DNA from: Nitrospirota bacterium
GTDB taxonomy: Bacteria > Nitrospirota > Leptospirillia > Leptospirillales > Leptospirillaceae
Reading direction: 5' to 3'
Length of the DNA stretch: 33,435 nt
Assembly: GCA_023481175.1 (NCBI GenBank)
Contig: JAMCWM010000025.1
Location: forward strand, 1-33,435
Notes under the pieces: model-generated
Seen by the model: only the letters and a program-made list of their open reading frames with translations
The model's database searches: none
What the model was told of the DNA's origin: nothing
Made by a program: the position numbers and the translations under genes
In this document: piece by piece, positions 1-33,036 of the stretch
Layout of the letters: each line of letters opens with the position of its first letter
Position numbering within the stretch: the first letter of the stretch is position 1

Positions 1-240
1 CGGGCTGTTGTGAGGACGGGCAAGAAGATCGGCACCTATGTCGGACGGGTGGCTGTCCGGGCTTCGGGGAGTTTCAACCTCCAAACCGGATCGGGACTGG
101 TTCAGGGGATTCCCCACACGGTCTGCCGGCTTCTTCAGAGAGCCGACGGCTACGGGTATTCATTGGTAACGACCAACAGAAAGGAGAGCGCATTCCTCCC
201 CGCCGTGAATGGCGAGGTTTCCAATGCGCGCAGAGGATGA
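1..240 (+). CDS. iscB: IscB-type RRXRR/HNH nuclease, C-terminal end (partial, runs off left edge)
   Basis: The frame is open to the first base and ends at TGA 238-240, so only the last 79 residues are present. They contain GKKIGTYVGRVAVRASGSFN, then VQGI, a Cys, and QRADGYGYS. I recognise this block as the C-terminal target-motif-interacting part of IscB proteins, the transposon-borne ancestors of Cas9 that use an omega (HEARO) RNA to direct DNA cleavage. The RuvC and HNH motifs would lie upstream and cannot be checked. The GTG at 10-12 is internal rather than a start. The stop overlaps the arsD start (ATGA), so the element ends hard against the arsenic genes. Family assignment is from memory of the conserved tail; whether the full protein is intact is unknown. 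Confidence 0.7.
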   Translation, partial: RAVVRTGKKIGTYVGRVAVRASGSFNLQTGSGLVQGIPHTVCRLLQRADGYGYSLVTTNRKESAFLPAVNGEVSNARRG

Positions 241-848
241 CGACGATTCAGGTTTTTGACCCGGCCCTGTGCTGCGCCAGCGGCGTTTGCGGTGTGTCGG
301 TGGATCAGGAGCTGGTCCGGTTTTCCGCCGACGTGGAGGCCATCCGGAAGAAGGGGGGGACGGTCGAGCGCTTCAATCTCTCCCAGGAACCGCTTCGTTT
401 TGTCCAGACCGCTCTTGTGGCGGAGATTCTCGAAAGAGAGGGGGAAAAGGCTCTTCCGATCGTCCTGTCGGGGGCAAGAATCCTCGCGAAGGGCCATTAT
501 CCCTCCCGGGAGGAGATGGAGCGGGAGTTGGGACTTTCTCCGGCCCCCTCCCATTTTACGGCGGCAGTGGCGGAGCTGGTGGCGATCGGAGCCGCCGTGT
601 CGGCCCGTTGCGACTCTTGCTTCCGGCTTCACCGCGACCGTGCGATCGCCCTCGGGGTCAGCGCCGAGGAGATCGCCGAGGCCGTGAGGCTCGCCAAAAA
701 GGTCCGGACGACCGCGGATGAAAAATTCGATCGGGTGGCAGAAGGGATTTTTGATGGCCGGTCCACCGGGACTCCTCTTCCCGTGGTCCAGACCTCCGGA
801 GACGAAGGCTTGCGCCCCCCTTCCGAGGGCAAGACAACCTGCTGCTAA
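237..848 (+). CDS. arsD: ArsD arsenic metallochaperone fused to an AhpD/CMD-like thiol domain
   Basis: This 203-residue protein is much longer than ordinary ArsD (about 120). Residues 1-100 are ArsD: MTTIQVFDPALCC with Cys12, Cys13 and Cys18, the As(III)/Sb(III) ligands that hand metalloid to ArsA. Residues about 105-172 look like an AhpD/carboxymuconolactone decarboxylase domain with Glu113, Cys125, Cys128 and His132. This spacing equals the E-x11-C-x2-C-x3-H relay of AhpD. The protein ends in a Cys-Cys pair (202-203), like the C-terminal pairs of ArsD. The ATG at 237 overlaps the upstream stop by four bases; AGAGG lies directly against it, so translation may depend on coupling. arsA follows after 17 bp. 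The fusion suggests a chaperone with its own redox centre; that role is an inference. Confidence 0.88.
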   Translation: MTTIQVFDPALCCASGVCGVSVDQELVRFSADVEAIRKKGGTVERFNLSQEPLRFVQTALVAEILEREGEKALPIVLSGARILAKGHYPSREEMERELGLSPAPSHFTAAVAELVAIGAAVSARCDSCFRLHRDRAIALGVSAEEIAEAVRLAKKVRTTADEKFDRVAEGIFDGRSTGTPLPVVQTSGDEGLRPPSEGKTTCC

Positions 849-865
849 CGGGAGAGGAGATCTTC

Positions 866-2671
866 ATGAAGTTCCTTGAAAATGCTCCCTCTTATATTTT
901 TTTTACGGGAAAAGGAGGAGTCGGCAAGACCTCGATCGCCTGCGCCTCCGCCGTCTTGCTTGCCCGATCGGGAAAAAAGGTGCTGATTGTCAGCACCGAC
1001 CCGGCCTCCAACATCGGACAGGTCTTCGGGGTTTCCATCGGCCACAGGACGGTGCTCGTCCCCGCAGTTCCGGGCCTCTCGGCCCTCGAGATCGATCCCC
1101 GGGAGGCGGCCGCCCTCTACCGGGAAAGGGTCATCGGCCCCGTCCGGGGCAAGCTTCCCGAATCGGTCGTGAACAGAATTTCCGAACAGCTCTCGGGCGC
1201 CTGCACCACTGAAATCGCGGCCTTCGACTCCTTTACGGAGCTCCTTGTGAGGGAGCAGATCCGATCGGAGTACGACCATGTCCTCTTCGACACGGCGCCC
1301 ACCGGCCACACGATCCGTCTCCTTTCTCTTCCGGGCGCCTGGAGCCGATTTCTGGAGGAGGGCAAGGGCGACGCCTCCTGCCTCGGCCCTCTGGCGGGGC
1401 TGGAGAGACAGCGGGATCAGTACCGGCAGGCGGTAGCGACGCTGTCGGACCCCGCCCTGACGCGTCTCGTCCTGGTCGCCCGGCTCCAGGGGTCCACCCT
1501 GTCCGAAGTCACAGGGACCCGGGAGGAGCTCCGGAGGATCGGGATCGACAATCTGGCCCTGGTATTAAACGGCGTCTTTCCCCCGGAGGCCACGGAGGGA
1601 GATCCCCTGGCAGAGGCGATCGTTCTTCGGGAACGCCGGGCATTGGAAGAGCTTCCGGAGAATCTCCGGGATCTCCCCCGGGACATGCTTCCCCTCCGTC
1701 CCGAAAACATGGTGGGCCTTCCGGCCCTGGAAAATCTCCTGGAACCCTTGGCCTCCGGCCGGCCAGATATCCCGCAGGAACCATCCAGTGTTCCCCTGCC
1801 GCCTCTCTCCGCCCTCGTGGACGGGATCGTCTCCTCCGGGCCGGCTTTGGTGATGCTGATGGGCAAGGGAGGGACCGGGAAGACGACCCTGGCCGCCGCC
1901 ATCGCGCTCGCCATCGCCGCAAGGGGCCTTCCGGTTCATCTGACGACCACCGACCCGGCGGCCCACCTCGAATCCACGCTGTCGGGGACCTATCCGGGGC
2001 TCGTCGTGAGCCGGATCGACCCCCGCGTTGAGACAGCCCGCTATCGCGACCGGGTGCTGGAGAGTCGGGGAAAGAGCCTCGATGCCGAGGGACGGGCCCT
2101 TCTCGAAGAGGACCTGCGCTCACCCTGCACGGAAGAGGTGGCGGTCTTCCAGGCCTTCTCGCGGGTCGTCCGGGAGTCGGAGCGATCCTTCGTCGTGGTC
2201 GATACCGCCCCGACCGGCCACACCTTGCTTCTCCTCGACGCGGTCGGCGCCTACCATTCCGAGGTTGTCCGGCATATGGGAAGGGACGAGGAAACGGTCC
2301 GGACGCCCTTGGCGGATCTCCGGAATCCCTGGCGGAGCCGGGTTTTGATCGTCACTCTGGGGGAACCGACCCCCGTTATGGAGGCCGGGGAACTCGCCTC
2401 CGAGCTCCGGCGTGCCGGGATCGAGCCCTGGGGATGGGTGGTCAATGCCAGCGTCGCGGCGGCCCGTCCGACCTCCTCCCTTCTCCGGTCCCGGGCCAGG
2501 AAGGAGGAAGCGGAGATCCGGAAGGTTCTGGAGGGACATGCGGCCCGGGTCGCGGTGGTTCCACTCCTGGAGCGGGAACCTGTGGGAGTCCGCGAATTGT
2601 TCGGGCTTTTGCGAAAGACGGGAGGTCTCCGGGAAGAGGGACGGGAGGAGGACTTGTTTCCTGAAGGCTGA
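866..2671 (+). CDS. arsA: ArsA, two-domain arsenite pump ATPase
   Basis: This 601-residue protein has the classic duplicated ArsA fold. Half A1 carries the deviant P-loop GKGGVGKTS (15-23) and DTAPTGHT (142-149); half A2 carries GKGGTGKTT (333-341) and a second DTAPTGHT (446-453). The three metalloid-binding cysteines known from E. coli ArsA are present at 113 (ACTTE), 172 (SCLG) and 421 (PCTEE). The family energises export of As(III)/Sb(III) through ArsB or Acr3. The start is set by GGAGAGGAGA 8-9 bases upstream of ATG 866. It lies 17 bp after arsD, so the two form an operon. No arsB or acr3 pump gene is in the window; it may lie to the left of the IscB element or elsewhere. Confidence 0.95.
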   Translation: MKFLENAPSYIFFTGKGGVGKTSIACASAVLLARSGKKVLIVSTDPASNIGQVFGVSIGHRTVLVPAVPGLSALEIDPREAAALYRERVIGPVRGKLPESVVNRISEQLSGACTTEIAAFDSFTELLVREQIRSEYDHVLFDTAPTGHTIRLLSLPGAWSRFLEEGKGDASCLGPLAGLERQRDQYRQAVATLSDPALTRLVLVARLQGSTLSEVTGTREELRRIGIDNLALVLNGVFPPEATEGDPLAEAIVLRERRALEELPENLRDLPRDMLPLRPENMVGLPALENLLEPLASGRPDIPQEPSSVPLPPLSALVDGIVSSGPALVMLMGKGGTGKTTLAAAIALAIAARGLPVHLTTTDPAAHLESTLSGTYPGLVVSRIDPRVETARYRDRVLESRGKSLDAEGRALLEEDLRSPCTEEVAVFQAFSRVVRESERSFVVVDTAPTGHTLLLLDAVGAYHSEVVRHMGRDEETVRTPLADLRNPWRSRVLIVTLGEPTPVMEAGELASELRRAGIEPWGWVVNASVAAARPTSSLLRSRARKEEAEIRKVLEGHAARVAVVPLLEREPVGVRELFGLLRKTGGLREEGREEDLFPEG

Positions 2672-2723: not shown

Positions 2724-3110
2724 GTGTCTGAGAAGAAATCCGGTCCCGACCCCCGGACGGAAAAACGCATTCTCGGGATTTTAGAGGCCCTGTCGTCCGG
2801 GATCCGTCTCGAGATCTTTCGGCTTCTCGTGACGCACGAACCCTCCGGTCTCGTGGCCGGAGAGATCTCCGGGACCGTCGGGATCCCCCCGACCAATCTC
2901 TCCTTCCATCTGAAGGCCATGACCCAGGCGGGACTCCTTTCGGTCACGCCCGAGGGGCGCTTTCTGCGCTATCGGGCCAGAATCGGAGGCGTCGAGGAGG
3001 TCATCGCCTACCTGACGGAGAACTGCTGCAAACATTCCGGAGGAGGCCCGCCCCCGGAAGACTGTCTTTCTCCTCCCCCTCCGAAGGGGCGGAAGAAGGG
3101 CGCCTGCTGA
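2724..3110 (+). CDS. arsR: ArsR/SmtB-family arsenic-responsive repressor
   Basis: This 128-residue winged-helix protein is typical of ArsR. The recognition region is PTNLSFHLKAMTQAGLL (about 56-72), followed by a wing. It lacks the ELCVCDL metal site of E. coli ArsR. It has instead a C-terminal Cys101-Cys102 pair plus Cys114 and Cys128, recalling the Acidithiobacillus-type As(III) site. The GTG start at 2724 is fixed by AAAGGAGGA a few bases upstream. The 52-bp gap after arsA holds an AT-rich patch, TAATATATAAGG at 2688-2699, that could be a -10 or operator, but no matching -35 is visible, so arsR may be the third gene of the operon. Its position last in the operon is less common than first. 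Confidence 0.92.
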   Translation: MSEKKSGPDPRTEKRILGILEALSSGIRLEIFRLLVTHEPSGLVAGEISGTVGIPPTNLSFHLKAMTQAGLLSVTPEGRFLRYRARIGGVEEVIAYLTENCCKHSGGGPPPEDCLSPPPPKGRKKGAC

Positions 3111-31612: not shown

Positions 31613-32266
31613 GTGATAAGACACCTCGATGCGGAGATTGATCACCTCAAAGGCCACATCACGGAAATGGGGAACATGGTCGATCTCCAGATGAAGGAGG
31701 CGACGGAGGCTCTCATGGAGCGCGATCCCGTCAAGGCCAGGGGAGTCATCGACCGGGACCACCAGGTCAACGCCATGGAGGTGGGGATCGACGAGGACTG
31801 CGTCCGAATGATCGCCTTGCACCAGCCGGAGGCCCGGGATCTCCGCTTCGTCATCACCGCCATGAAGATCATCACCGATCTCGAGCGCATGAGCGATCTG
31901 GCCTCTAATATCTCGGAGCGGGTGGTGGAGCTCTGCATGGAGCCGCCGATTTCCGTTCCTCCGTCGATCATGGAGATGTCGACCATCGGTCGAGGAATGC
32001 TCAGAGAAGCCCTTGACGCCTTCGTCACACGAAACACCGCGCTGGCCCGGCAGGTGACCCAGGAGGACGAGCAGGTCAACGTTCTCCATCGGGAACTCGT
32101 AAAAAGCATCGTGGAGAGTCTGAAGCGGCATACCGGAGAAACCAGTCCCATCATTCGCATTCTCTTCGTCAGCCGCTCCCTCGAACGCTTTGCGGACCAT
32201 GCGACCAATGTGGCGGAAATCATCATGTATATGGTGGAGGGAAAGATCATCCGCCATATGGTGTGA
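31613..32266 (+). CDS. phoU: PhoU phosphate signalling regulator
   Basis: This 217-residue all-helical protein has two PhoU repeats. The first runs from EIDHLKGHITEMGNMVDLQM to LHQPEARDLRFVITAMKIIT and DLERMSDLASNI. The second ends RILFVSRSLERFADHATNVA, with the E/D-rich metal motifs of both repeats present. PhoU links PstSCAB to the PhoR sensor and keeps the pho regulon off when phosphate is plentiful. GTG 31613 has GGAAGGA upstream, 15 bp after pstB. PhoR itself is not in the window, so this signalling arm is incomplete here. Confidence 0.94.
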   Translation: MIRHLDAEIDHLKGHITEMGNMVDLQMKEATEALMERDPVKARGVIDRDHQVNAMEVGIDEDCVRMIALHQPEARDLRFVITAMKIITDLERMSDLASNISERVVELCMEPPISVPPSIMEMSTIGRGMLREALDAFVTRNTALARQVTQEDEQVNVLHRELVKSIVESLKRHTGETSPIIRILFVSRSLERFADHATNVAEIIMYMVEGKIIRHMV

Positions 32267-32386
32267 GGGAGAATTCAGGAAGGTGTTCGGATCTTCCGGG
32301 AGCATTCATGGAAAGGTCGTCGCCCGGCGTCATCTCCACCCTCAAGGATGAGGTTCAAACTGAGAATTGCTGTTGGAAGAGACTTA

Positions 32387-32415
32387 CTGACCTTTACAAA
32401 TAGTACCATTATGAG
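32387..32415 (+). promoter_or_regulatory. Possible hicAB promoter with operator-like direct repeat
   Basis: CTGACC (32387-32392, 4/6) and TATGAG (32410-32415, 4/6) are 17 bp apart. The octamer GTACCATT occurs at 32403-32410 and again at 32416-32423, overlapping and flanking the -10, as an operator for HicB autoregulation might. Confidence 0.4.
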
Positions 32416-32428
32416 GTACCATTCAAGC

Positions 32429-32698
32429 ATGAAGGGAAAACACCAAAAAACACTTCTTCTTTTGTTTTCCCATCCTACAAGCGCAAATGTGGACTGGAAC
32501 GATGTCGTTGGATTGTTAAGATCGCTTGGGGCTGTTATTGAAGAGCGAAAAGGCTCAAGGGTTGGAATTTTGTTGAACGACAAAACGGTCATTTTTCACA
32601 GACCTCATCCGCGCCCATCGATGGACAAAGGGGCCGTGGTTTCTATGAGAGAGTTTTTAAATCTTTGTGGAATCACTCCAGAAGGAGAAGCGAAATGA
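32429..32698 (+). CDS. hicA: HicA-family toxin (type II toxin-antitoxin)
   Basis: This 89-residue protein begins MKGKHQKTLLLLF, then NVDWNDVVGLLRSLGA, GSRVGILL and FHRPHP, the pattern of the HicA subgroup paired with RHH-type HicB. HicA is a double-stranded-RNA-binding-fold mRNA interferase using a conserved His. The start at 32429 aligns with family members; ATG 32411 would add MRYHSS and cannot be excluded. The antitoxin start overlaps its stop (ATGA). Sequence here is much richer in A and T than the rest of the window, a sign of recent acquisition. Confidence 0.87.
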   Translation: MKGKHQKTLLLLFSHPTSANVDWNDVVGLLRSLGAVIEERKGSRVGILLNDKTVIFHRPHPRPSMDKGAVVSMREFLNLCGITPEGEAK

Positions 32699-33036
32699 AT
32701 CTGATGGAATATAAAAACTATGTTGCCTTGATCGAATTCGATCCCGATATCGACATGTTTCATGGCAGGGTGATCAACGCGACTCCAAACACTTTTTACG
32801 GCAAGTCGGTCGATGAGCTGAAAGAGGAATTCAAGACGACTATTGAAGAATATCTTGAATTTTGTAAGGAGAAAGGATTGGAACCCGTCCGCCCTTACTC
32901 GGGAAAATTCAATCTCCGGATCTCTCCCGGTCTTCATCGGAATATAGCGATGGAAGCGGCCAAATCCGGTAAAAGTCTCAACTCCTGGATTGCGGAATGT
33001 CTTGAACAATCGATTGGGCACCTGGTCGAACGATAG
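32695..33036 (+). CDS. hicB: HicB-family antitoxin
   Basis: This 113-residue protein has the partial RNase H-like HicB domain (YVALIEFDPDIDMFHGRVIN, YGKSVDELKEEF, EYLEFCKEKG). A ribbon-helix-helix DNA-binding end follows (FNLRISPGLHRNIAMEAAK, SLNSWIAECLE). It neutralises HicA and represses the operon. ATG 32695 overlaps the hicA stop and has AAGGAGA upstream. A frame extension to 32665 lies inside hicA. Like hicA it is AT-rich compared with the phosphate genes. Confidence 0.92.
   Translation: MNLMEYKNYVALIEFDPDIDMFHGRVINATPNTFYGKSVDELKEEFKTTIEEYLEFCKEKGLEPVRPYSGKFNLRISPGLHRNIAMEAAKSGKSLNSWIAECLEQSIGHLVER

Follow-up and report, generated by a model that had tools for sequence, protein, structure and literature searches.

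A natural fusion of the arsenic metallochaperone ArsD with a CMD/AhpD-type dithiol domain

A gene in the window, as the whole 33,435-nucleotide stretch of Nitrospirota DNA analyzed here is called, encodes an ArsD protein extended by a CMD/AhpD-like domain (Table 1), and 14 intact fusions of this kind were found, in 13 genomes in total. That the protein is such a fusion and that it is functionally tied to arsenic is almost certain, and the added domain has the look of a genuine partner in arsenic handling, with the arsenic link well supported. Judged by sequence, the fusion is a real, conserved variant of ArsD and is new relative to the literature searched: no ArsD-CMD/AhpD fusion was found described in the accessible portions of the open-licence literature on ArsD, arsenic resistance, and CMD/AhpD, and a description could exist elsewhere. 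ArsD serves as the textbook example of an As(III) metallochaperone; to our knowledge, there is no consensus on how cells keep its thiols reduced and loaded. The natural fusion of ArsD with a dithiol domain, kept under selection and apparently present on two ArsD backbones, suggests a candidate partner for these thiols and brings the question within reach of experiments on a single protein and a handful of Cys mutants. The fusion and the separate CMD genes that lie next to ars genes point to a helper of arsenic detoxification that has yet to be studied.

Domain architecture and gene neighborhood of the fusion

The open reading frame of the fusion gene, arsD::cmd, begins with ATG and contains no internal stops. 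Domain profiles bore out the original prediction of a complete ArsD followed by an AhpD-like core and a terminal Cys-Cys. The Pfam ArsD profile PF06953 matched residues 1-111 (E 3.1e-37, 128 bits, cut-off 27), and the ArsD model NF033727 matched residues 3-96 (113.6 bits, cut-off 90). The search against CMD/AhpD profiles, by which the prediction was to be checked, returned a significant match to PF02627 (CMD) over residues 104-153 (E 1.2e-9, 38.5 bits, cut-off 23) and a match to TIGR00778 over residues 108-152 that lies barely above the cut-off (28.8 versus 27.8 bits). Membership in three further families was not supported: the C-terminal part scored 12.3 bits with TIGR00777, the full-length AhpD model (cut-off 191.95), and the window protein scored 15.1 and 16.4 bits with NF041047 (GSU3128 family; cut-off 110) and 19.8 bits with NF041537 (ArsM/AhpD selenoprotein; cut-off 510), of which the AhpD-like end alone aligned. 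NF041537 also gave a weak match in 5/5 members of alignment A1. A chance match or frame artifact was ruled out by the profile scores above cut-off and by the 14 intact fusions.

Table 1. Coordinates of the features discussed, in the window and in other loci
Feature	Sequence	Position	Strand	Evidence or remark
3' end of iscB (RNA-guided endonuclease IscB)	window	1-240	+	cut by contig start
arsD::cmd, 203-aa ArsD-CMD/AhpD fusion	window	237..848	+	ORF, Pfam, NCBIfam, 13 other intact fusions
ArsD domain, residues 1-100	window	237..536	+	PF06953, NF033727; PDB 3mwh/3kgk/3ktb by sequence
Cys12, Cys13, Cys18 codons	window	270-275 and 288-290	+	within ArsD domain
CMD/AhpD core, residues 104-172	window	546..752	+	PF02627, TIGR00778; PDB 7y4r, 3bey; model helices
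Glu113, Cys125, Cys128, His132 codons	window	573-575, 609-611, 618-620, 630-632	+	within CMD/AhpD core
Low-constraint tail ending Cys202-Cys203 (840-845)	window	753..845	+	CC invariance, dN/dS, pLDDT
arsA, arsenical pump-driving ATPase, 601 aa	window	866..2671	+	TIGR04291 796 bits, cut-off 650
arsR-like regulator, 128 aa, ends KKGAC	window	2724..3110	+	PF12840 43.2 bits, PF01022 24.3 bits, over cut-off
Fusion with in-frame loss in the core	L043	2672-3205	+	
Partial second CMD-like frame	L130	17468-17800	+	
Sigma-70 region 4/ArsD end/CMD frame	L138	6061-6765	+	single open frame
arsD-like start MPKVQVFDP	L139	from 4752	+	by eye

Among solved structures, the nearest to the CMD part by sequence were the CMD proteins 7y4r (E 1.6e-5) and 3bey (E 3.2e-5); the AhpD entry 5dik gave E 0.19, or 0.081 in a second search. 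An AlphaFold2 model of the fusion, computed from a 30-row alignment of which only 5 rows cover the CMD part, had a mean pLDDT of 87.8 and a pTM of 0.64. The ArsD and CMD parts were confident, with CMD helices at residues 109-123, 126-138, and 143-172, and the tail was of low confidence (pLDDT about 50-70).

In AhpD, the dithiol of a CxxC motif is activated by a Glu and a His and regains its reduced form via a lipoylated protein. The predicted Glu-Cys-Cys-His set was found in the window protein at positions 113, 125, 128, and 132 (spacing 12, 3, 4), and its AhpD counterparts we take to be residues 118, 130, 133, and 137. The window protein shares with the AhpD/CMD family (PF02627, TIGR00778) the helical core and the order of Glu, CxxC, and His, as judged from these presumed AhpD positions, but has the core alone (∼65 residues), fails TIGR00777, and is joined to ArsD. 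Compared with ArsD of the E. coli R773 type, the full domain, Cys12/Cys13/Cys18, the adjoining arsA, and the terminal Cys-Cys are the same, whereas the window protein adds ∼100 residues with the CMD/AhpD core before the terminal Cys-Cys. According to the accessible part of PMC4562236, Cys12, Cys13, and Cys18 are required for the chaperone function of ArsD, and features of the E. coli R773 ArsD are tied to regulation.

In the accessible portions of the sources, the nearest precedents are ArsN-ArsD fusions and ArsM/AhpD selenoproteins. ArsN fused to ArsD or ArsC is attributed to Chauhan et al. 2009 in the part of PMC6205960 consulted; here, too, ArsD is fused to a second ars-operon protein, but the partner is ArsN and not CMD/AhpD. 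The ArsM/AhpD domain selenoprotein (NF041537), listed in the part of PMC13188914 consulted, is likewise an arsenic protein whose C-terminal end is AhpD-like; unlike the fusion, it is an arsenite methyltransferase rather than ArsD, and it has a selenocysteine.

The window starts at the first base of its contig, and arsA begins 17 bases downstream of arsD::cmd, followed by the arsR-like gene, whose product scored 49.8 bits with NF033788, below the cut-off of 55. Within the window, neither Acr3 (three queries) nor arsC was matched and no efflux pump match was seen; ArsB (PF02040) had no match in the genome of the window, which is 89% complete. Beyond the fusion, that genome gave one weak match to the fusion protein (E 0.098). 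The neighborhood of the other fusions, searched by tblastn, contained at least one of acr3, arsC, arsR, and arsA beside the fusion in 13/13 loci (L001-L003, L191, L130, L131, L190, L133-L136, L184, and L185). The gene order was arsR-acr3-arsC-arsD::cmd in L002, L003, and L130, with arsA next or 1.8 kb further, and arsA precedes the fusion in L133; no arsA match was present in the stretches of L131 and L190 that were searched. An ArsC match of the low-molecular-weight-phosphatase type lies just upstream of arsD::cmd in six loci (L001, L002, L003, L130, L131, and L190), and no arsC match was present in the stretches of L133, L136, and L185.

Two other features of the window were noted. The stop codon of the truncated iscB overlaps the ATG of arsD::cmd, placing a mobile-element gene directly upstream of the ars genes; 43 plasmid records match this frame, with iscB annotation in 5 of the 8 matches listed. 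An alternative frame at 3-239 had no family match and was rejected as the upstream gene. The GC content of window positions 32001-33000 drops to 0.479, compared to 0.57-0.68 in the other 1-kb steps.

Distribution, constraint, and history of the fusion

The 14 intact fusions are those of the window, L001-L004, L089 and L099 (both in one genome), L090-L094, L160, and L179. A scan of genome contigs yielded 47 relatives, of which 4 (L001-L004) have the whole extension and one, L043, has the extension without the core; the carriers include metagenome-assembled genomes of Rubrivivax (L001), Myxococcales (L002), and Anaeromyxobacter (L003). In the genome searches, ArsD bearers were counted from match rows, a fusion was defined as a profile match running through both parts, and the counts that follow may be low, being lower bounds in most searches. 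In the phylum of the window, 31 of 295 genomes had a near-complete ArsD, and the fusion was found in the window's own genome only. Myxococcota, the phylum of L002, differ: among 195 genomes, 12 had ArsD or a core-deleted fusion, and 8 of these, including the genomes of L002 and L003, had an intact fusion (9 genes). Elsewhere, the fusion was found in a single genome per search: L001's own, both in its family (299 genomes, 29 with ArsD) and in its phylum (398 genomes, 10 with ArsD); L004's own in its phylum (244 genomes, 2 with ArsD); one in the phylum of L042 (187 genomes, 25 with complete or partial ArsD); and one in the phylum of L041 (Gemmatimonadales; 140 genomes, 5 with ArsD). Thus, among the genomes searched, the fusion is rare beyond the phylum of L002. 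Among plasmid records, 2106 match the fusion query, none with one place covering 80% of it, and the CMD part alone had no match. Mis-assembly of a single contig was ruled out by the presence of the same architecture in 13 genomes. Two ArsD proteins of one genome (L101 and L102, both G336) carry another long C-terminal extension of ∼80-125 residues that is unlike CMD.

Two doubts had accompanied the original prediction, namely, that the extension might be absent from close homologs or poorly conserved in them. The first was justified: ArsD is unfused in three genus-mates of the window (G008, G009, and G013), and most ArsD proteins found lack the CMD extension. The second was not, given that the extension, where present, is conserved like ArsD. 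In alignment A3 (12 rows), Cys12, Cys13, Cys18, Glu113, Cys125, Cys128, His132, and the terminal two Cys are invariant; with L160 and L179, judged by eye, added to these rows, the ArsD triad, the E-C-C-H set, and the terminal CC are kept in 14/14 intact fusions. Within residues 105-170 of the 12-row alignment, 15 of 66 positions are invariant, and the chance of E-C-C-H all falling among them is p 0.0019. Median pairwise dN/dS (Nei-Gojobori) was 0.33 for ArsD (61/66 pairs), 0.33 for CMD (63/66), and 0.74 for the tail (51/66); these are relative measures, with many distant pairs and dS up to 2 accepted. The CMD part is, by these estimates, as constrained as ArsD, with both under purifying selection. 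Conversely, losses were found as well. L095 (G333) encodes ArsD and the tail without CMD, and L043 is a fusion with an in-frame loss of the stretch bearing the Glu, both Cys, and the His, the rest being kept. Because the domain or its core was lost there while ArsD was kept, CMD is dispensable at least in L095 and L043.

The two parts of the fusion differ in their phylogenetic signal. In an ArsD tree of 93 rows, the window and L001 lie among proteobacterial-type ArsD (motif VDQ), and the other fusions lie outside this set (motif VDP). With the long-branched L103 and L037 removed, AU tests rejected a single clade of fused ArsD, both with 13 fused of 91 rows and L043 counted as fused (p 0.00045) and with the 14 intact fusions of 123 rows and L043 counted as unfused (p 0.003). 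That all fusion genes go back to one origin through plain descent is therefore rejected by the ArsD parts, at 100 columns and with a long window branch. In the first CMD tree (13 fused, including the half gene L100, and 18 alone), fused CMD formed one clade with support of 89/80. In a larger tree (15 fused, including L100, and 23 alone), L187, a seemingly degenerate stand-alone CMD, fell inside the fused set, and one clade of fused CMD was not rejected (p 0.416). The window CMD, whose branch is the longest among the fusions (1.34), joined that of L004 in both trees (support 99/96 in the first and 97/83 in the larger), and its grouping with the CMD of L001 was not rejected (p 0.106). These histories, read from 66 (CMD) and 100 (ArsD) columns, lean toward, but do not prove, one CMD lineage residing on two ArsD backbones, either through recombination or because two fusions drew on a common source.

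Stand-alone relatives of the added domain

The nearest kin of the added domain are stand-alone mini-CMDs and the AhpD-like part of the ArsM/AhpD selenoproteins, not full-length AhpD. The mini-CMDs, which include the nearest stand-alone kin in the tree, are small proteins with the same core; many have Cys-rich C-terminal ends (GCGC, CCG, GCC), and several have ars neighbors. They differ from the fused domain in having genes of their own, which encode proteins of ∼85-160 residues and in nine cases adjoin an ECF sigma factor gene. Among five stand-alone CMDs scanned, four exceeded the TIGR00778 cut-off (L081, at 26.2, was below), all five weakly matched the AhpD-like end of NF041537, and all five were below the NF041047 cut-off.

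Apart from the half gene of G333, the CMD part alone was matched 22 times in the genome searches, and the neighborhoods of 19 of these loci were covered, with G556, G1203, and G1441 left out. In 8/19 loci (L081, L084, L086, L139, L140, L141, L143, and L144), acr3, arsA, or arsC lies within 5 kb, and in two further loci (L082 and L083) within 12 kb; the other 9/19 had none of the three in the stretch, some stretches being short or reaching contig ends. By our own estimate, 8/19 is far above the expectation from a few ars genes per several-Mb genome. The ars-linked loci come from families f10, f21, and f11 of the window's phylum and from one genome of the phylum of L002; because these are few lineages, the loci do not represent eight independent events.

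An ECF sigma factor gene adjoins the CMD gene in 9/19 loci (L081, L084, L086, and L139-L144), as called with Pfam for L143 and L081 and by eye or motif for the rest. SigZ was the best or near-best NCBIfam score for the sigma factors of L143 and L081, below its cut-off in both. In 6/9 of these loci the sequence ends with a motif like CxLYRDERNELAC (C-x-x-[YF]-RDERNELAC), and that of L143 nearly does. The ECF sigma factor and the mini-CMD may be a conserved pair. L143 additionally has an ArsE-type thioredoxin, and L140 has a thioredoxin and a DsbD-type membrane protein.

Several side observations concern these loci. Eight of the nine ECF sigma/mini-CMD loci are near ars genes. A single open frame in L138 combines sigma-70 region 4, an RDERNELSC motif, the last part of ArsD, and the CMD core. 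In L139, homology to arsD soon ends after an arsD-like start, and a stand-alone mini-CMD lies ∼1 kb away on the opposite strand.

Possible roles of the fused domain

The best explanation of the whole, which we hold at slightly less than even confidence, is an ArsD metallochaperone with a joined AhpD-type dithiol domain that serves as a redox relay. Cys125 and Cys128, activated by Glu113 and His132, would form a thiol-disulfide relay within the protein, holding the Cys12/Cys13/Cys18 triad in the reduced form able to bind As(III) or restoring it to that form, and perhaps also reducing the terminal Cys-Cys. The reduced triad would bind As(III) and pass it to ArsA, with electrons supplied by a cellular dithiol, e.g., dihydrolipoamide or a thioredoxin. 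The relay mechanism for the ArsD cysteines is itself a tentative proposal, inferred from sequence features and favored over a second As(III) site. Since the Glu and the His are kept along with both Cys, thiol catalysis seems a better fit than a passive metal site. The relay reading is supported by the domain matches, by the 14/14 retention of the E-C-C-H set, the triad, and the terminal CC, by the equal constraint on the two parts despite the long branch of the window CMD, by the two backbones, by the ars neighbors, and by the ars linkage of stand-alone CMDs, two of which (in L143 and L140) are accompanied by other thiol-redox genes. It is weakened by the losses in close kin, by the many ArsD proteins without CMD, by a TIGR00778 score ∼1 bit over the cut-off, and by the origin of the linked stand-alone loci from few lineages, with 9/19 lacking acr3, arsA, and arsC.

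The same cysteines could instead form a second As(III) site: As(III) captured by the CMD dithiol and the terminal Cys-Cys would move on to Cys12/13/18 and from there to ArsA, and the domain would widen the capture range of the chaperone and not be a redox enzyme. This is possible but on the unlikely side. The terminal CC of all 14 fusions, the Cys-rich ends of many stand-alone CMDs, and the presence of a like domain as the C-terminal part of the NF041537 model agree with it; however, CC tails are common on unfused ArsD too, so the tail need not belong to CMD, and the invariant Glu113 and His132 would be unexpected in a plain As(III) site. A role as reductant of ArsC, with the CMD dithiol recycling the low-molecular-weight-phosphatase type enzyme of the cluster and channeling newly made As(III) to ArsD, would suit the six loci with ArsC just upstream, but the window and three other loci have no arsC match, and we consider it improbable. 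Removal of arsenic-stress peroxide in the manner of AhpD is slightly less probable still: the E-C-C-H set and the TIGR00778 match are compatible with a peroxidase, but the AhpD core alone is present, as the TIGR00777 score indicates. Finally, an accidental fusion whose CMD part is a neutral passenger without a role is disfavored and has the lowest probability. The losses in L043 and L095 and the rarity of the fusion beyond the phylum of L002 are what such a passenger would predict; against it stand a CMD dN/dS equal to that of ArsD and well under that of the tail, the complete active-site set in every intact fusion, the occurrence of the CMD lineage on two ArsD backbones, and the stand-alone kin beside ars genes.

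Beyond the fusion, small AhpD-type dithiol proteins might conceivably belong, so far unrecognized, to the regular gene set of bacterial arsenic clusters, either encoded separately (in several cases with an ECF sigma factor) or fused to ArsD, acting directly on the chaperone as a dedicated dithiol by loading, releasing, or re-reducing its As(III) site; we regard this wider proposal as doubtful, yet possible. The stand-alone mini-CMD genes near ars genes gain a likely purpose from the fusion.

CMD-like sequences without the CxxC were also observed. L130 has a partial second CMD-like frame of this kind between arsD::cmd and arsA, and L157, L183, and L188 encode tandem CMD proteins in which the second copy lacks the CxxC.
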